Origin: Firmicutes bacterium UBA3871
Lineage (GTDB): Bacteria; Bacillota; Clostridia; Peptostreptococcales; Anaerovoracaceae
DNA length: 14,140 nt
NCBI GenBank assembly: GCA_002392265.1
Contig: DGGP01000067.1
Location: 1-14,140, forward strand
Reading direction: 5' to 3'
Shown: positions 3,933 to 11,822 of the stretch, piece by piece
How the letters are laid out: the number at the start of each line of letters is the position of its first letter
Numbering within the stretch: the first letter of the stretch is position 1
Notes under the pieces: generated by a model
The model's input: only the letters and a program-made list of their open reading frames with translations
The model's database searches: none
Told to the model about the DNA's origin: nothing
Program-made: the position numbers and the translations under genes

Positions 3933-4412
3933 TTATTTATGGTACGTTTCTCCCCTGTTAATCTTGAAAGAACGATAAATTTGCTCCAGCAGGAACACTC
4001 TCATCATCTGATGAGGGAAGGTCATCGCCGAAAACGACAGCTTATAGTCTGCACGCGCCGACACCTCCGCAGAAAGGCCCAGCGATCCGCCTATTACAAA
4101 CGCCACGTCGCTCTTTCCCTCCAGTCCAAGCTTTTCAAGCTTTTCAGCAAGCCCCTCCGAGCTGAGACTTTTCCCCTGCACTTCGAGCGTTATGACGTAC
4201 TGCTCCTTTCGCAGGTGCGAGAGTATGTCCCGGCCCTCCGCCGTCTTTACAGCTTCCTCCTCTGCTGCGCCGCTGCGGTCAGGAAGCCGCGCTTCCTTTA
4301 GCTCTGTTATCTCCAGCGAGCAGTAAGCCCTCAGCCGCTTTGCATATTCCGCCACAGCTTCGCTCCAGTACTTTTCTTTTAGCTTTCCTATACATACAAC
4401 GTTTATGTTCAT
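3933..4412 (-). CDS. rlmH: 23S rRNA (pseudouridine1915-N3)-methyltransferase RlmH
   Basis: 159 residues, the normal length for this small SPOUT-class enzyme (YbeA/OrfX, COG1576), which methylates N3 of pseudouridine 1915 in helix 69 of 23S rRNA using S-adenosylmethionine. Visible hallmarks are the N-terminal MNINVVCIGKLKEKYW, the SAM-knot segment FVIGGSLGLS (about residues 105-114), the LSFSAMTFPHQMMRVFLLEQIYR motif region (about 127-149) and the C-terminal INRGETYHK that contacts the ribosomal RNA in homologues. The ATG at 4410-4412 is preceded by GGAGGG (4422-4427) with 9 nt spacing and by its own promoter. It is separated from the upstream walJ gene by a strong terminator and ends 63 nt before the -35 of the antiporter promoter. 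Confidence 0.97.
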   Translation of the reverse strand: MNINVVCIGKLKEKYWSEAVAEYAKRLRAYCSLEITELKEARLPDRSGAAEEEAVKTAEGRDILSHLRKEQYVITLEVQGKSLSSEGLAEKLEKLGLEGKSDVAFVIGGSLGLSAEVSARADYKLSFSAMTFPHQMMRVFLLEQIYRSFKINRGETYHK

Positions 4413-4527: not shown

Positions 4528-5331
4528 TTATACCATATATACGTCGGAAACCTGATCCCGCGAAAGAGTTGCCATGTCTATGTGTCTGCCCACATAATAG
4601 CCTTCGGATTCCATAACACCCTTTATCGTTGCCTCGGCCATTTCAGGGAAGTTTGTCTCCTTTGAAAGATGCGCCAGAAGCACAGTCGGAGTCTCGAGCA
4701 GCCCCCATTTGCCCTCGTCGAGAACCTTGCAAAGCTCTTTACCTGTAGTCTCGTTCGAAAGATGTCCGAAATCGCTGAGTATTCTCCTCTTTATATTGTA
4801 AGGATAATTGCAGAACTGAAGTGTATCCACATCATGATTTGATTCGAGCACTATCAGATTGGAATCCACGAGAAGCTCGTGAGCCTCGTCCGTTACATAT
4901 CCCGAATCCGTAAGTATTGTTAATATGCGCCCTTCACTCTCAAACGAATAGCCTACAGGCTCCTCTGCATCGTGGGAAAGAGTGAAAGGACAGCATCTGA
5001 TATCACCTATCCAGAAATCCTTTCCCGCTGCTACAGTGGTATGCTCCGCACTGCATTCCTTTTCGATATATTTCCAGGTGCCCGCAGTGCAATACACCTC
5101 GAGTCCCGGCAGTTTGTTGGTCAGGGGCTTTATACCACGCACATGGTCTGTATGCTCGTGTGTTACGAGAAGAGCTTCAACATCTGCTAATTTTGTTCCT
5201 GCTGCTTCCAGTCCCTCTTCAATTTTCTTGCAGCTGATTCCTGCATCAACCAGCAGTACAGTATCGTCTGTACGTACCAAATAGCAATTTCCGCTGCTGC
5301 CGCTTGCGATTGAACAGAATCTGAGAGTCAC
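4528..5331 (-). CDS. walJ: WalJ/YycJ-type metallo-beta-lactamase-fold hydrolase
   Basis: 267 residues, matching the usual 260-270 of WalJ (YycJ), a cytosolic MBL-fold protein encoded with walRK in many Bacillota and linked to coordinating cell division/DNA replication with wall synthesis; its biochemical substrate is unsettled. It starts TLRFCSIASGSSGNCYLV, the typical YycJ N-terminus. The metal-binding motif THEHTDH (about residues 58-64) supplies the HxHxDH ligands, and further ligands are expected at SHD (about 120), TDSG and the GHLSNE segment. I choose GTG at 5329-5331 because GGAGG (5339-5343) lies 7 nt upstream. The upstream in-frame ATG at 5371-5373 would add 14 residues, has no ribosome binding site and lies only 13 nt from a promoter -10. 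It is the last gene of the unit after yycI. Confidence 0.92.
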   Translation of the reverse strand: MTLRFCSIASGSSGNCYLVRTDDTVLLVDAGISCKKIEEGLEAAGTKLADVEALLVTHEHTDHVRGIKPLTNKLPGLEVYCTAGTWKYIEKECSAEHTTVAAGKDFWIGDIRCCPFTLSHDAEEPVGYSFESEGRILTILTDSGYVTDEAHELLVDSNLIVLESNHDVDTLQFCNYPYNIKRRILSDFGHLSNETTGKELCKVLDEGKWGLLETPTVLLAHLSKETNFPEMAEATIKGVMESEGYYVGRHIDMATLSRDQVSDVYMV

Positions 5332-5386
5332 GTCTATACCTCCAACATTTTGTCTTTTGTATACAATATACATTTTCGATATTTAT

Positions 5387-5425: not shown

Positions 5426-6142
5426 CTAAATTTGTACTGCTCCGACATATTTTTTTTCGCCGCTTGAAAGTGTTATTTCCCAAGTAGGAAACGCCGTATC
5501 CGAAACCGTTTCACCGAGCTCCATATCCGTGTCGGGAACCCAGTAAACGAGCTCTATGCCCGTAATGGTCATCTTTGCTCCGGGCTGCTGATTAACCAGC
5601 GACATCAGAGCCACCGCCGCAGACATCGTTTCTATTTTACGAGGCGAAACCTCCACATCATCGAGCCAGTGATAATTCATATCTGTAATCCTGCCGTCCT
5701 TGAAATAGACCTCGATATAGTTTTCCGCAATCTGCAGGCCTTCGACCTCATTTTTAAAACGAACGCTCGCATCAATATCACCGTCCTCAAAGAGCTCCGT
5801 CTCCTCGTACACGGTTTCATCATCCAAAATTCCCAGATACTCGAGAAAGTCCTCCGCTACGCCCTCGTAATCCGAAGTCGCCGTAGGCATCCCCTGTGCG
5901 AGGGCCGCTATCTCTTCCCTATCAACGGAAAGATATTCTCCCTGGATTATTCGCAGGGAAGGATGCAGACGCGGTATATCCACTTCAAGCTCTATGTTTC
6001 TCTGCTCCATCAGCTGCAAAATTACTTCCTCGTTTGTCATTTCGCCTCTGTCCGAATGGCGGTCCAGAAGACTGTATATCAGAAAAACATTCGTGGCTAT
6101 CAGCGCTATTATTAAAATTGTCTTTGCTTTAGTCCAGTCCAT
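5426..6142 (-). CDS. yycI: YycI-like WalK accessory protein
   Basis: 238 residues beginning MDWTKAKTILIIALIATN, the standard YycI opening: a short cytosolic N-terminus, one transmembrane helix (about residues 6-26), and the rest outside the membrane. In Bacillus subtilis and Staphylococcus, YycI binds YycH and the sensor kinase WalK through the membrane helices and modulates WalK activity (inhibitory in the first, activating in the second). The ectodomain has the YycH/YycI fold pattern, including a late VYWVPDTD...AFPTWEITLSSG segment. The ATG at 6140-6142 is preferred over an in-frame start 14 codons earlier because GGAG (6147-6150) precedes it and family members start MDW. It overlaps the end of yycH by 14 bp, implying translational coupling. 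No walK is in the window. Confidence 0.9.
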   Translation of the reverse strand: MDWTKAKTILIIALIATNVFLIYSLLDRHSDRGEMTNEEVILQLMEQRNIELEVDIPRLHPSLRIIQGEYLSVDREEIAALAQGMPTATSDYEGVAEDFLEYLGILDDETVYEETELFEDGDIDASVRFKNEVEGLQIAENYIEVYFKDGRITDMNYHWLDDVEVSPRKIETMSAAVALMSLVNQQPGAKMTITGIELVYWVPDTDMELGETVSDTAFPTWEITLSSGEKKYVGAVQI

Positions 6143-7547
6143 ATTGCTCCGAAGTATATAAATCGAAATATAACGGTTTAGCAAGGCCCTTTACACCAAT
6201 CTGCCAAACGGGAACCAGCCTGTCTCCATCCGCATAGTATCCGTATTTAACCGAAGTCAGCCTTTGAGCGACCGCCTCCATCGAAAGGTCTTCGCCCAGG
6301 GCTGCAGCTATGTTTTGGTAATTGGCAGCTATTGTATTCAGCGCCGAAAAAACTTCATTCGTTCCGGCATCCTGCTTTGGCTCGATAATCGGTCTCTCCG
6401 CGTAGTAATATGTTACAACACCGCCCGAAACCTCAATTATAACAGGGTTTCCTTCTTTGAAGAAAATGTCCTCGCCGTCTGTCTCAAGCCCCAGTTCAAA
6501 GCGATACTTCCCGTGTCCGGCATTGTCAGTCTTTACCTTTTCAAGCTTTACTCCCGGCTCAATGCCTCCGCCTGTTACGATAGGCTGATGGCTGTCGAAA
6601 AACTGCAGCGCAATGTCAAGCGCTTCAAAGTAATTGACGCTCTGCGTACCCGCCGCCTCGGATTTGTACTCAACGCTGCCGTCTTCGTTCAAAATCAAAA
6701 CAGTCTCGCCATAGCCATACATATATATGACCTTCCCGCCGGACTCCTCAATCTTTCGCACGAAGTCAAAGGTGTTGCCAAAGAAAGACTTTGCCTGCAT
6801 CGCATCGGCCTCAGTATCCCGTCCCGCGTAAATGTCGCGCTCCGTCATATCGCTTTCCATGGACATAGGGAGCAAGAGGTCCAAATCGACGCCTTCGCCC
6901 AGCAGTGCGCTTATCGGATAGTAAACGGCCTCGCTGTCAAAGTCGGTCCCGCTAAAGAAGCTCTCCGCCCATTCGCTCTTTGCACCGCTTACGACGCGAA
7001 AGTATTTGTTCTGCGAAGCATCCTTCACCAGCAAACTGTCCGTAGCCGCTGCCGAAAAGCCTATCTCGGAGAGGTTTTTTATCTCCTCCACACCTGCAGC
7101 TCCGACCACATTTTTGTATTTGAAATAGTCGCCAAGTGGCAGCAAGTAGTCAAACACTGCCCTCACCGATCTGTAGGTGTAAGCCTCTTTGTACTGCTCT
7201 TCGGAAATCTCTTCGACAAAGAGCTCGTCGCTCTGCTCGAAGGCCAGCAGACTGCTGACAAAGCTGCCCGGATCTTCGATACTGCCATAAAGCGGCTTTA
7301 CGTCGCTTTTTACTATATAATCGCCCTGGCCGGTTCCGATTATCACGTACGACGGAACCGCTACATCCTCGACAAAAACGGTCCTTTCCTCGTCGTCATC
7401 GGAAAAGCCGAGATCTATGTCTGAAAGAGAGAAACGAGTCAGCTCAAGATCTGCCCAAAAAACATATAATAGTAGTATTGTCATTAAAGTCAATACTACT
7501 ATTAATACACTTTTTATTGATTCTTTTATGCTCGTCTTTCTATTCAA
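6129..7547 (-). CDS. yycH: YycH-like WalK accessory protein
   Basis: 472 residues, near the usual 440-460. Topology is a short basic cytosolic N-terminus, one transmembrane helix (about residues 13-31, VLIVVLTLMTILLLYVFW) and a large extracytoplasmic region with the three-domain YycH layout (a late PVWQIGVKG stretch mirrors the PTWEITL stretch in YycI). YycH forms a complex with YycI and WalK at the membrane and tunes WalRK signalling. The start is TTG (7545-7547), with GGAG at 7557-7560, 9 nt upstream. That ribosome binding site lies within the last codons of the preceding gene, whose stop is 4 nt before this start, so the two are probably co-translated. Codons 15-27 contain a long inverted repeat and are markedly AT-rich (listed separately). 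Confidence 0.9.
   Translation of the reverse strand: MNRKTSIKESIKSVLIVVLTLMTILLLYVFWADLELTRFSLSDIDLGFSDDDEERTVFVEDVAVPSYVIIGTGQGDYIVKSDVKPLYGSIEDPGSFVSSLLAFEQSDELFVEEISEEQYKEAYTYRSVRAVFDYLLPLGDYFKYKNVVGAAGVEEIKNLSEIGFSAAATDSLLVKDASQNKYFRVVSGAKSEWAESFFSGTDFDSEAVYYPISALLGEGVDLDLLLPMSMESDMTERDIYAGRDTEADAMQAKSFFGNTFDFVRKIEESGGKVIYMYGYGETVLILNEDGSVEYKSEAAGTQSVNYFEALDIALQFFDSHQPIVTGGGIEPGVKLEKVKTDNAGHGKYRFELGLETDGEDIFFKEGNPVIIEVSGGVVTYYYAERPIIEPKQDAGTNEVFSALNTIAANYQNIAAALGEDLSMEAVAQRLTSVKYGYYADGDRLVPVWQIGVKGLAKPLYFDLYTSEQYGLD
7457..7504 (-). repeat. Terminator-like hairpin inside the start of yycH
   Basis: A perfect 14-bp inverted repeat, TAATAGTAGTATTG (7467-7480) and its complement (7491-7504), has a 10-nt loop. 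On the minus (coding) strand the hairpin is followed after 4 nt by six T's (7462-7457). It lies about 43 nt inside yycH, in the transmembrane-helix codons. The stem is AT-rich, so it would be a weak terminator or an mRNA-processing or translation-modulating structure; the structure is seen, the function is inferred. Confidence 0.5.
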
Positions 7548-7551
7548 AACA

Positions 7552-8070
7552 CTAATCTCCGAATATTGTCTTTAGGAGGTTTTGCAGGAAAGTGAAGGTT
7601 CCGGACTGGCCCGTACTGAATACGGCGCTCTCCGTCGTTTCCTTTACCGCAACCTTTACGGTCCTAGTTGTAGTGTATACTACCTTTTTATCTTTACCTA
7701 ACGTGCTAACCGTGATCAGATAATTACCCGGTGTAACATTTTCAAATTTTTTTGTATAGTAACTCAGAGTATTTGTGCTCGTAAAGCTTTCCGGAGTTTC
7801 TATATTTGTATATGTCTTTGTAGTCTTTGTTTCTATCGTACCGTCAACAGCTGCAGATGTGGTAACCACAGTGGATTCCTTTGCAACTGCCACACTGATT
7901 GTTTCGGCCTTTGTCACCTTTACCGAAACTAGGAGGTTTGACGAATAAACTGTTGAATCTGCTGAAGGATTTACTATCGATACATACGGATCCGCATCCG
8001 CAAATGCCACCAATACCGATGAAAGCACCAGCACCAGCACTAAAGCGAGTACCGGCAGGATTCTTTTCAT
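7552..8070 (-). CDS. Exported Ig-like beta-sandwich protein of unknown function, heading the yycHI-walJ unit
   Basis: 172 residues; I do not recognise a named family. It begins MKRILPVLALVLVLVLSS with a predicted Sec signal peptide of about 24 residues, cleaved after AFA before DADPYV; there is no lipobox cysteine, so it is secreted or surface-held rather than a lipoprotein. The mature part is rich in Thr, Ser and Val with alternating hydrophobic strands, including VSIVNPSADSTVYSSNLLV and VTPGNYLITVSTLGKDKK, the pattern of a single bacterial Ig-like or fibronectin-like sandwich (about residues 28-145). A C-terminal segment TFLQNLLKTIFGD looks like an amphipathic helix. The ATG at 8068-8070 is chosen because AAGGAGG precedes it and the signal peptide starts there. 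Its stop is 4 nt before the yycH start. A WalR-type box precedes its promoter. A role as extracytoplasmic partner of YycH/YycI is inference. Confidence 0.85.
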   Translation of the reverse strand: MKRILPVLALVLVLVLSSVLVAFADADPYVSIVNPSADSTVYSSNLLVSVKVTKAETISVAVAKESTVVTTSAAVDGTIETKTTKTYTNIETPESFTSTNTLSYYTKKFENVTPGNYLITVSTLGKDKKVVYTTTRTVKVAVKETTESAVFSTGQSGTFTFLQNLLKTIFGD

Positions 8071-8148
8071 TTCGCTCGTTCCTCCTTTCCTTAAATTCGT
8101 ACTTAAAAATGGACACACTTTCAGAGTCTAATCTAGAATACTCAGTAT

Positions 8149-8157
8149 ATTGTATCA
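8149..8157 (-). promoter_or_regulatory. Extended -10 promoter of the secreted protein-yycHI-walJ unit
   Basis: Minus strand TGATACAAT: a TGn-extended -10 with TACAAT at 8149-8154. The position 17 bp upstream (8172-8177) reads ATACTG, which is not a -35, and falls inside the WalR-type box. This is the layout of an activator-dependent promoter. The leader to the ATG is about 70 nt. Weaker -10 alternatives overlap it. Confidence 0.5.
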
Positions 8158-8164
8158 CACTATT

Positions 8165-8181
8165 GTTACAGCAGTATTACA
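8165..8181 (-). promoter_or_regulatory. WalR (YycF) operator, exact consensus match
   Basis: Minus strand TGTAATACTGCTGTAAC fits TGTWAH-N5-TGTWAH exactly (half-sites 8176-8181 and 8165-8170). With equal base frequencies such a match arises about once per 466,000 positions. It overlaps the missing -35 region of the unit that carries the WalK accessory genes yycH and yycI. An additional isolated half-site TGTAAA lies further upstream on the same strand near 8198-8203. Confidence 0.75.
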
Positions 8182-8236
8182 ACCAGTTTAATTCATCTTT
8201 ACAGAATTGCATCTCATGCAAATTTATTCAAAGCAT

Positions 8237-8268
8237 AAAAAGCGGGCCCGGAAATATTCCGGGCCTGC
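8237..8268 (-). terminator. Rho-independent terminator of the chemotaxis receptor gene
   Basis: Minus strand: stem GGCCCGGAA/TTCCGGGCC (8245-8253 with 8257-8265, loop ATA), extended to 12 bp with one G-U pair, followed by five T's (8241-8237). It begins about 20 nt after the receptor stop codon. The stem is itself nested in an outer 12-bp inverted repeat, AAAGCATAAAAA (8230-8241) and its complement (8277-8288). Confidence 0.9.
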
Positions 8269-8287
8269 CTGTCATGTTTTTATGCTT

Positions 8288-11200
8288 TTAGAACTTGTCG
8301 TTTGGCTCTATATCCGGAAGAGCCTCAAAAGATGGCTCATCGTCGGTATTAAGTGCATTCTTCAGATATTCTTCCGAAGCATAGCCGATCTTGAACTGCT
8401 TTACCAAACCCTTTAATGTATCTGTCTGGCTGTACAGCTCTTCGGATGCGGCTGCCGATTCCTCGGTAGTTGCCGAAGAATTGCGGATAACATCGGAAAT
8501 CTCGCCGATTCCGGTATTAACCTTTTCGATACCCAGCTGCTGCTCATGCGAAACGTCCGCAATGGCATTACAGAAGCCTGCCGTCTCGGTAATACCTCCA
8601 ACGATTGCTTCGAGTGCCTGAGCAGTTTCGTTTGCAATCTTTGTTCCGGCCTCAACCTTTGAAATGGAGCCTTCAATAAGCGTAGTGGTCTGAGAAGCTG
8701 CTGCTGCCGATTTGGCGGCGAGGCTGCGAACTTCGTCTGCTACTACTGCAAAGCCCTTGCCGTGTACGCCGGCTCTGGCTGCTTCGACTGCTGCGTTGAG
8801 CGCCAGAATGTTTGTCTGGAACGCAATGTCATCGATAACCTTTATGATATTGCTGATGTTCGCCGAAGACTCGTTGATGTCCGACATAGACTGCAGCATA
8901 GCGCGCATCTTTGTATTGCCTGCTTCCGCCTGGTGCATAACGTCTGTCGAAAGCTCGGAAGCCTTCTTTGCATCCTCTGTGTTGCGTCTGGTCTGTGTAG
9001 CAACCTTGTCCATCGTGAGCGAAAGCTCCTGAACGGTGGTCGACTGTCTGGTGCTGCCCTCTGCCATGATGCTTGCGCCGTCTGCCAGCTGCTTTGCACC
9101 GTTTGCAACCTGGTCTGCCGATTCGTTCAGCTTTATGATCATGTCGGTGAGTCCGTTTCTGATCATAACGATAGAACCTGCAATCTTTCCGAAGTCGCCG
9201 CTGTACTTAACTCCTCTGTCATGCGGCTCCAGATCGCCCTTGCTCATATTTTCGAGAGTCCATGCCAAATCTTCCATTACGGCATTCAGACTGTCTATAG
9301 TCTTGTTGAGAGCGTTTGTCATTCTCGCATTGTCGCCGCGATATTCGCCTGTTACTCTGGTCGAGAAATCAGCCTTTGCCAGTTTTTCGAGAACAGTAAG
9401 CATTTCCTTTACCGGTTCGAGCACGGCATCGAGGATTGAGTTAACCCCCGCTGCAACGCTGGCGTATTCGCCCTTGTAATCCTCTACGTTCATGCGCTCT
9501 GAAAGGTTTCCTGCAACCGCCTCGCCTGCGAGAGCCTTTGTATCCGTAACAATCTTCTTTACGGAGTCGCCCACCATCTTCAGGCTGATGTCGATATTCT
9601 CGAACTGCTTTGCAGTCGCCTCTGTTGCCGGGTCAACCTCCTGAGTACTCTTTTCTATTGCAAAATTACCCAGTGCGATGTTGCTGAGATTTCTCTGAAC
9701 ACGCTTAACCTCGTTTGCGGTAAACTCTGCCTGACGAGCGACCTCTGTGAGATCCTGAAGCGTAACTACATAACCGATGTTTTCGCCGCTGCTGTCTTTG
9801 ATTTCACTGGTAAGTCTGTTTTCGATCTTGCCGTCTTCTCTGATAATCTTTTCATTGCCCTGACCTGCGAGAAGCTCAGGTATTCCGTTTATATCTCTGC
9901 CCTGTACCTCGGCCTTTTTGCCGTACAGGTCTTTGTTCTTTGATACAAATCCCTTTTTCTTCAGCGGTTCTGCAAACGCATCGTTTACGAGTACCCAGTG
10001 CTGGTCGTTATCCATTACCTGTACAGGAATAGGAATGCTGTTTAATACCTGCTCGTACCAGAGTGTCTTTGCCTCCACCATTTCGAGGGTCTTGTTGATA
10101 GCTGCGATAATCTCACGGAACACGCCCTCATAGTGGTCTTCGTGAGCAGGATCACTGAAGTTACCCGAAGCAACAGATGCGGCAAGTGACTGGGATTCGC
10201 TTGAAAGTGCGGTAATTGCACTTACCATGCTGCGAATTGCCTCTACTACCCTTGCGTAGTCGCCCTGAACGTTGTCCGGAATCTCCGGAACTACGCCGTG
10301 TCCCACGTCAATCATAGCATCCGAAAGCATATTTACCGTAAACATGATGCTGTCTACTACTTCGTTCATCTTGTTTATGAGAAGGCCGTAGCTGCCCTTC
10401 AGCTTGCCCGGATTTGCTCTGTAGCTCATGTCTCCGCGCATTACTGCTTCGTGGAGGTGATTCATTTCGCTGCGGAGCATCTGCATAGAGTGGTTAACTT
10501 CAATAACAGACTTATTCAGTATGTCATTGTCGCAGCGAGCCTCAACCTTCATGTTCATCTCACCGTCAGCCAGCTTTTGCAGTGTGTCAGCCTGCATTTT
10601 GCTGCTTTCTATCAGGTGATGGAACGCATTGTTTAATTTTTCCACTTCGTCATGCGGAACCTCGGTATATGGACACTGCACGGTAACAACATCGCCGATT
10701 GCCAGCTTTTCTGCCTGTACAACGAGATTCTTTATAGGTGTTACCTGTCTGCGCGTTACCAAAACGAGTACCAGGCAGATCAGAATCAGCGATACAATGA
10801 GACAGATTGCGAGGAAGATTATAGAGTTTCTAACCGGCGCAAGAGCTTCGCTTCTCGGCAGCATCGTTATGATTGTCCAGCTGGTATCTCCGATTTTTTC
10901 AATCTTTGCGAACTGCTTTTGCCCTTCGTATTTTGCCAGTGCAACGCTGTCGTAATCGCCGCCGCTGTAAAGCTCCATCACCTCATCCGGCAATCCGATT
11001 TCCGTGATAGATTTTCCTTTATATTCGAGCACCGGATGATAGAATACCGTACCGTCCTCAAGGACTGCTATGGAATATCCCGTCTCACCGATGGTGGCGT
11101 CCTTAAAGATTGCCGTAATCTCGTCGAGAACCACATCCACACCGGTCATGCCGACGAGCGTTCCGTCATAATATACCGGCGAACCGATTGTGCAAACGGT

Positions 11201-11773
11201 ATTTCCGGTAATCTTGTCGAAATACGGCTCAGTGACAGCTGTTTCACCATTAGCTGCAACAACCGCATCCATCCAGTCCGAATTAATTACATTGGTTGTA
11301 GGATAGTTGGTAAAGCAGTTTTCACCGTCACTCTCCAAAAGGTCGTTTATCGTGTATCCGGAAATATAGAAGTCATCGATTTTCGGGTACTTTTCAAGTG
11401 CAGCTGCCAGATAGTCAACAACATAGTTTGCACCCGGCTGCTGAATGTACGGAGTACCCGTCACACCCGAATTGTACATCATTTCCTGCAGGCGTTTGTC
11501 CCTGGCATAGCTTTCAGTAACCCCCGCATACTCTGTGAAGAAATCCTCAACTTCACATCTTACGATTTCGGAGGACTGTTTTAGCCGTTCTCCGACTATG
11601 TCCATTAACTGTCCTGACAGAATTACACCCATCACTATGATAATCTCAATAAAGATAAGAATGATAGGTACCCCTGTCCCCAATAAAAACTCGCGAGTCA
11701 AGCTGCTTGACTTCTTTGCTTTTTTAGTTTTTTCTACCTTTGGGCTCTTTACTTTCTCCTTATTTTTACTCAT
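8288..11773 (-). CDS. Large methyl-accepting chemotaxis protein: dCache, multiple HAMP-like modules, PAS, MCP signalling domain
   Basis: 1161 residues, about twice a typical receptor. A Lys-rich cytosolic start is followed by transmembrane helix 1 (about residues 28-50), an extracellular double-Cache ligand domain (about 55-312, with [19 protein letters not shown]), transmembrane helix 2 (about 314-340) and a HAMP domain. HAMP-like units recur every 42-52 residues, marked by G/A-D/N/H/E pairs near residues 361, 403, 449, 494 and 539. A PAS domain follows (about 571-676, [12 protein letters not shown] to [12 protein letters not shown]), then more units near 702, 754, 801 and 847. The signalling hairpin holds the highly conserved CheA/CheW-binding tip ([20 protein letters not shown], about residue 980) and likely methylation sites such as [13 protein letters not shown]. 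It directs flagellar motility through CheA; the ligand is unknown, and the PAS could sense an internal cue. The ATG at 11771-11773 is preferred over an in-frame TTG 10 codons earlier; its ribosome binding site (GTGAGAGA) is weak. Confidence 0.95.
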
Positions 11774-11822
11774 GATGTCTCTCACTTTCTTGCTTAAGAT
11801 CAAACATATTCCCGTACCCTAC

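Follow-up and report, generated by a model that had tools for sequence, protein, structure and literature searches.

The DNA at 8149–8191 on the minus strand of a 14,140-nucleotide stretch from Firmicutes bacterium UBA3871 (“the window”, i.e., the whole stretch that was analysed) is very probably a WalR-dependent promoter, which would drive a unit of genes encoding helpers of the kinase WalK and thereby form a feedback loop. Judged from related genomes, it looks like a widespread WalR promoter for WalK helpers, joined by a new secreted Ig-like protein. In most Bacillota, wall homeostasis depends on the essential WalRK system, which is also an antibiotic target. The promoter predicts that helper genes are regulated by their own pathway in many Clostridia, which is the opposite of published reports of no autoregulation, and it names the sequence to mutate.

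The predicted promoter and its gene unit

The core of the promoter is a WalR box, TGTAAT-ACTGC-TGTAAC (TGTAATACTGCTGTAAC), which reads from 8181 to 8165 on the minus strand and consists of two half-sites at 11-bp spacing. As claimed in the preliminary description of this DNA, it matches the consensus TGTWAH-N5-TGTWAH without mismatch. If up to one mismatch is allowed, the consensus occurs at three sites in the window (1.18 expected; 24 of 200 shuffles reach three), all of which overlap at this box. The TTAAA at 8187–8191 (minus strand), 11 bp before the box, is likely a third, upstream half-site: the combined pattern TTAAA-N5-YGTAAY-N5-TGTAAY has a single occurrence in the UBA3871 genome, at 8165–8191. 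The -10 element, TACAAT (8149–8154, minus strand), lies 10 bp below the box and has a TG one base ahead (8157–8156). A promoter scan of 8000–8420 returned no minus-strand pair of -35 and -10; its sole match is on the plus strand (1.2 expected). If transcription is assumed to begin some 7 nt downstream of the -10, the box would occupy approximately -39 to -23, i.e., the position of a -35. The earlier statement that the box stands where a -35 should be, upstream of an extended -10, is upheld.

Read 5′ to 3′ on the minus strand, the window contains an MCP gene, a terminator-like hairpin, the box promoter, a small secreted gene, a yycH-like gene, yycI, walJ and rlmH. The preliminary description had spoken of a yycHI-walJ unit lacking walRK: walRK is indeed absent from the window and the genes named were correct, but the list was incomplete, since the unit runs from the small secreted gene through yycH-like, yycI and walJ to rlmH. 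The hairpin (8265–8245, minus strand; one found, 0.4 expected) is located 3′ of the upstream MCP gene, between this gene and the box. The first gene of the unit (7552–8070, minus strand) starts 94 bp below the box and encodes a small, predicted secreted protein of 172 aa with a predicted signal helix, an Ig-like β-sandwich and a C-terminal helix. The second gene (6129–7547, minus strand) is called yycH-like because of its place before yycI and its relatives; its product scores 16.6 bits with Pfam YycH (PF07435; E = 0.0042; residues 9–83 only), under the cut-off of 27. The product of yycI (5426–6184, minus strand) passes the curated Pfam cut-off of YycI (PF09648; 53.9 vs. 29.7 bits), and its start is probably an internal ATG at 6142 (MDWTKAKT...), not the upstream TTG at 6184. 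An MBL-fold hydrolase gene (4528–5373, minus strand; Pfam Lactamase_B_2, 66.8 bits), which we take to be walJ (yycJ), has relatives downstream of yycI in many loci, and it is followed by rlmH (3933–4412, minus strand; NCBIfam NF000985, 226.9 bits, cut-off 172). The large MCP gene (8288–11803, minus strand) has no evident link to the wal unit; its product combines dCache with several HAMP domains and a PAS-like region.

Conservation of the promoter in the order

By itself, the single box is not convincing. The exact consensus is not enriched in the UBA3871 genome (1.48 Mb), where 12 sites compare with 11 for the reversed pattern, and dinucleotide-shuffled versions of 25 upstream regions from the family (200 bp each, one strand) yield exact matches at a rate of 0.0036 and matches with up to one mismatch at 0.061, which makes the chance frequency of 0.001 in the preliminary description somewhat optimistic. 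The box is taken as more than chance because it is conserved. Relatives of the small secreted gene were found in 25 of the 80 genomes searched, UBA3871 included, and the 200 bp before the gene contain TGTWAH-N5-TGTWAH with at most one mismatch at all 25 loci (exact at 14); this is a fair test, since the pattern had been fixed beforehand by the earlier reader. The form YGTAAY-N5-TGTAAY is present without mismatch at all of these loci, from which L088, the second piece of G038, is excluded. The box is also found at 19 of 20 further yycH loci that were fetched, and at all nine small-gene loci of named GTDB genomes, including the cultured Clostridium aminobutyricum, some of the nine being probably the same species as members of the 25. 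In C. aminobutyricum DSM 2634 (L166), the box precedes the small-gene match by 82 bp. Conservation upstream of orthologous units, which had been set as a test of the proposal, is thus found at both kinds of loci and, as described below, widely in the class.

An alignment of 44 promoters (the 25 small-gene loci and 19 from the further yycH loci) gives the consensus TTAAA-N5-YGTAAYA-N4-TGTAAYA-N9-TATAMT. As YGTAAY-N5-TGTAAY served to select the promoters, the invariance of GTAA and TGTAA in the 19 order-level ones reflects the selection. Features that were not selected for are TAA 11 bp upstream (44/44), TTAA (40/44), the A after the box (44/44) and the position of the best -10, which 42 of the 44 have at precisely 10 bp from the box on its downstream side. 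The TACAAT of UBA3871 departs from TATAMT, and both UBA3871 and its congener G001 have poorer -10s.

A strict pattern of box plus -10 has 45 matches in 40 of the 80 relatives, a partly circular count as the pattern was derived from small-gene loci of two families, and the reversed pattern has two; 40 of the 45 matches precede yycH or the small gene and five lie elsewhere. With TTAAA replacing the -10, there are 34 matches in 30 genomes (28 at the yycH unit, six elsewhere) and one match of the reversed pattern. Relatives of the yycH-like gene are present in 47 of the 80 genomes, UBA3871 included. Eight yycH genomes lack the strict pattern: in G000, G001, G028, G054 and G076, the box is followed by a poorer -10, the yycH of G009 is at a contig edge, and G027 and G078 are the yycH relatives without a box. 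G022 and G027 have yycH without the small gene, and no yycH match was found in G023, which carries the small gene as well as the box.

Further sites were seen in passing. On contig C49 of G000 (6073–6184; about 1491–1602 of locus L004), three exact TGTWAH-type boxes precede the gene of an S-layer-homology protein, and one of them, TGTAACACTGCTGTAAT, is nearly identical to the box of the window. In G008, G066 and G055, SLH genes are likewise preceded by the pattern TTAAC-N5-TGTAAY-N5-TGTAATGGACAT, with no -10 at 10-bp spacing. A dispersed intergenic repeat, TTTGGTGCCTGTCCCCAAATTCGCC, with inverted copies, occurs on two contigs (L023, about 1690–1750; L024, about 1550–1610).

Distribution across the Clostridia

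In a sample of 393 genomes of the class, with membership in the Clostridia judged by named relatives, box plus -10 is found in 147 genomes and the reversed pattern in 12. YycI (PF09648) was found in 82, and at least 63 of these have a same-strand box with -10 at a distance of 1602–2511 bp (median 2184) upstream of the YycI match; this is a lower bound, as positions come from 150 matches in 139 genomes, compared with the tally of 147. Eight of the 82 belong to the order of UBA3871, and some of them were used to shape the pattern; the 74 outside the order are an independent test, and at least 56 of them have the box. Among the matches listed, six boxes in YycI genomes stand elsewhere, and 19 of the 82 genomes have no box, UBA3871 being one of them owing to its -10.

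Twenty YycI loci were read, 12 with and eight without a listed box, and as these were chosen, the resulting 15 of 20 with a box is not a frequency. At all 12 loci with a listed box, it lies between walK and yycI (in G289 by the box plus -10 pattern only). Among the other eight, G148, G125 and G096 have a one-mismatch form, which was accepted on condition that TAA stood above it and a near-TATAAT followed; no box was found at the YycI loci of G118, G087, G119, G105 and G342. The 15 loci with a box have space for a gap gene and the five without have none: there, walK is followed directly by yycH, by a stretch fitting yycH alone, or (G118) by yycI.

Of 72 box genomes without a YycI match, 20 were read, and 11 have YycH or YycI downstream by profiles built for this analysis. 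Among the nine boxes away from YycH/YycI, two stand ahead of NlpC/P60 genes, which follow at +75 and +76 bp, and one ahead of an FtsK/SpoIIIE gene. The products of lytE and cwlO are NlpC/P60 enzymes as well. In B. subtilis, WalR sites stand before these two hydrolase genes, and endopeptidase genes are described as being under WalR control in the parts of the source consulted (PMC7299342), so that the NlpC/P60 boxes point to WalR independently. Several genomes of genus g87, family f24 (e.g., 4406–4476 of L228 in G091) also carry near-identical boxes followed by a -10, with an FtsK/SpoIIIE gene downstream in the one that was read; possibly, this is a lineage-specific link of WalR to chromosome segregation.

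WalR as the candidate binder

The preliminary description had made the presence of a WalR orthologue in the genome a test, and such an orthologue is very likely present. In UBA3871, whose assembly is 70% complete, walR is cut by contig ends: one half is at an end of contig C147 and the other at an end of C10, and walK follows the second piece. The two pieces of the split gene score 142.4 and 180.2 bits with WalR/YycF (NF040534), for which the curated cut-off is 340; this cut-off is strict for the group, being passed by just 16 of 80 relatives. The DNA-binding half carries the WalR recognition helix and is nearest to solved WalR/YycF/VicR domains, and its RTVDVTVRRLREK is identical in four of the five solved domains shown, with one change in the S. 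aureus domain. The recognition-helix core DIRTVDVTVRRLREK can be recognized in 27 of 27 WalRs of relatives, kept in 22 and with one change in five.

Among the 80 relatives, box plus -10 (40 genomes) and yycH (47 genomes) are both confined to genomes with WalR, and neither occurs in any of the 23 relatives without WalR. WalR was called at 300 bits or more with NF040534 (54 genomes), a line set after seeing a gap between 306 and 286 bits, together with three contig-end cases (G000, G038 and G076).

Gene order and origin of the detached module

Of the 20 further yycH loci, G022 is from the family of UBA3871 and the other 19 are from different families of the order; a few had been matched earlier. 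Eighteen of the 20 have a contiguous walR-walK-[box]-gap gene-yycH-yycI cluster, with the box placed between walK and yycH; in G022, it stands before yycH without adjoining walK and without the small gene, and no box was found at the fetched yycH locus of G078. The gap gene matches the small-protein profile in 11 of the 18 contiguous clusters, and in six of the other seven an open frame follows the box (331 aa in G048), G076 being outside this check. The contiguous wal operon of Bacilli is not found in UBA3871, where walRK and walHIJ are on separate contigs. In the genomes read from its family and from the family of G055, G066 and G077, walRK is elsewhere and the module begins at the box, with a distance to walRK of 38–51 kb in G004, G012 and G010 and of 44 kb in G066. 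Since contiguous clusters in most other families read carry the box between walK and yycH, the box is apparently older than the split between walRK and the module, and the feedback would have turned trans secondarily. The idea of a trans loop from a detached locus, put forward in the preliminary description, was largely right but too narrow, given what looks like a widespread promoter for WalK helpers and a new secreted protein; the detachment itself is presumably secondary, since walRK-yycHI is contiguous in most other families of the order that were read. The case illustrates how a regulatory module might leave its operon yet retain control.

At loci L025 (1–6905) and L027, a DivIC-like gene is located after walRK and an M23 peptidase gene with LysM and G5 domains before it; further frames after walRK are presumably rnmV and ksgA.

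The small secreted protein

The AF2 model of the small protein (pLDDT 85.9, pTM 0.66) comprises a signal helix, an Ig-like sandwich at about residues 27–142 and a C-terminal helix. No Pfam family over cut-off and no NCBIfam match were found for it, and among 120 listed of its 138 database relatives, the named ones are hypothetical or uncharacterized. At the class level, 18 gap genes encode products of 143–180 aa, a representative of which folds with the same order of elements; this product and the small protein are likely homologous (hhalign 94.6%). The family, secreted, Ig-like and without a Pfam entry over cut-off, is a candidate third accessory protein. The broader proposal is tentative and held with slightly less than even confidence: across much of the Clostridia, WalR would regulate the sensor-tuning module and not walRK, the small secreted Ig-like protein would be a third extracellular modulator of WalK alongside YycH and YycI, and the module would be portable by virtue of its own WalR promoter. 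If true, the set point of an essential cell-wall pathway would be adjusted by feedback on helper levels, a possibility judged unlikely for B. subtilis.

Proposed mechanism and alternative readings

At PhoB-type class II promoters, the -35 is replaced by 11-bp direct repeats that stand roughly 10 bp upstream of the -10. Because the box of the window promoter would occupy the place of the -35 in the same manner, its activation by WalR~P is the best reading; the response regulator and the repeat sequence are different. Phosphorylated WalR would bind the 11-bp-spaced half-sites TTAAA, TGTAAT and TGTAAC in place of a -35 and, positioned 10 bp above the -10, recruit RNA polymerase as PhoB-type activators do. 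The small secreted gene, yycH, yycI, walJ and rlmH would form one transcript, and as YycH and YycI tune WalK, the output of WalR would set the amount of the helpers of its own kinase. In UBA3871, where the module is apart from walRK, this loop would run in trans. According to part of PMC10746227, YycH and YycI have opposite effects on WalKR in two species, repression in B. subtilis and activation in S. aureus; part of another report describes their effect in S. aureus as little (PMC4801191). The feedback would accordingly be negative should YycHI inhibit WalK, the B. subtilis case, and positive under the S. aureus mode of action, with an unproven leaning towards negative.

A box at near-fixed spacing above a -10 is the geometry of an activator, and no -35 was found that WalR could occlude. 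Both points weigh against the unlikely reading that WalR binds the box but represses the unit, such that helper production goes up when WalR~P falls; its precedent is that WalR represses some targets, e.g., iseA in B. subtilis (PMC7299342, in part). Slightly less probable again is that the box is the operator of a different OmpR-type response regulator. Regulators of this type other than WalR also read 11-bp direct repeats, tandem 11-bp sites being common in the family, and UBA3871 encodes two other complete ones (C67 and C63). However, their recognition helices differ (DDRTVDTHIKNLRNN and ETRTIDVHIGTLRTK), the box is restricted to relatives with WalR (40 of 40, and none of 23 without), it directly follows walK in most of the other families read, and it precedes NlpC/P60 genes in two class genomes.

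It is hardly credible that a TGTWAH match lies by chance ahead of a constitutive extended -10 promoter. The 12 exact genome matches against 11 reversed ones, and the 1.18 one-mismatch sites expected in the window, would allow for such a coincidence at a lone site, but the conservation at all 25 small-gene loci, at 19 of the 20 yycH loci fetched in addition and in at least 63 of 82 class genomes, along with the rarity of reversed patterns (two matches for box plus -10, one for the TTAAA form, 12 of 393 class genomes), already refutes it, provided that the conserved block is in fact the site of a regulator.

Comparison with known wal systems

No WalR promoter before yycHI, and no description of this secreted protein, was found in the titles and abstract openings listed by searches of openly licensed papers. 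The closest known arrangement is the walRKHIJ operon of B. subtilis and S. aureus, which shares the relatives of WalR, WalK, YycH, YycI and WalJ as well as the box consensus TGTWAH-N5-TGTWAH. According to the relevant parts of the sources, walRKHI of S. aureus is transcribed from promoters before walR, with no WalR sites there and no autoregulation (PMC4801191), and the wal operon of B. subtilis is not autoregulated either (PMC7299342). In UBA3871, in contrast, yycHI have their own WalR-box promoter, are accompanied by an extra secreted protein, and are separate from walRK.

The clostridial WalRK of C. difficile is encoded in a walA-walR-walK-truA2 operon, which is described as not autoregulated in the parts of PMC9210968 consulted; the regulon of this WalRK includes envelope and S-layer genes. 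YycH, YycI and WalH have no occurrence in the main text of that paper, whereas UBA3871 has yycHI under a WalR box. The lytE and cwlO promoters resemble the class-level sites, as the same box and -10 stand before NlpC/P60 genes in two class genomes; unlike at these promoters, the predicted targets of the unit in UBA3871 are helpers of the kinase and not a hydrolase.
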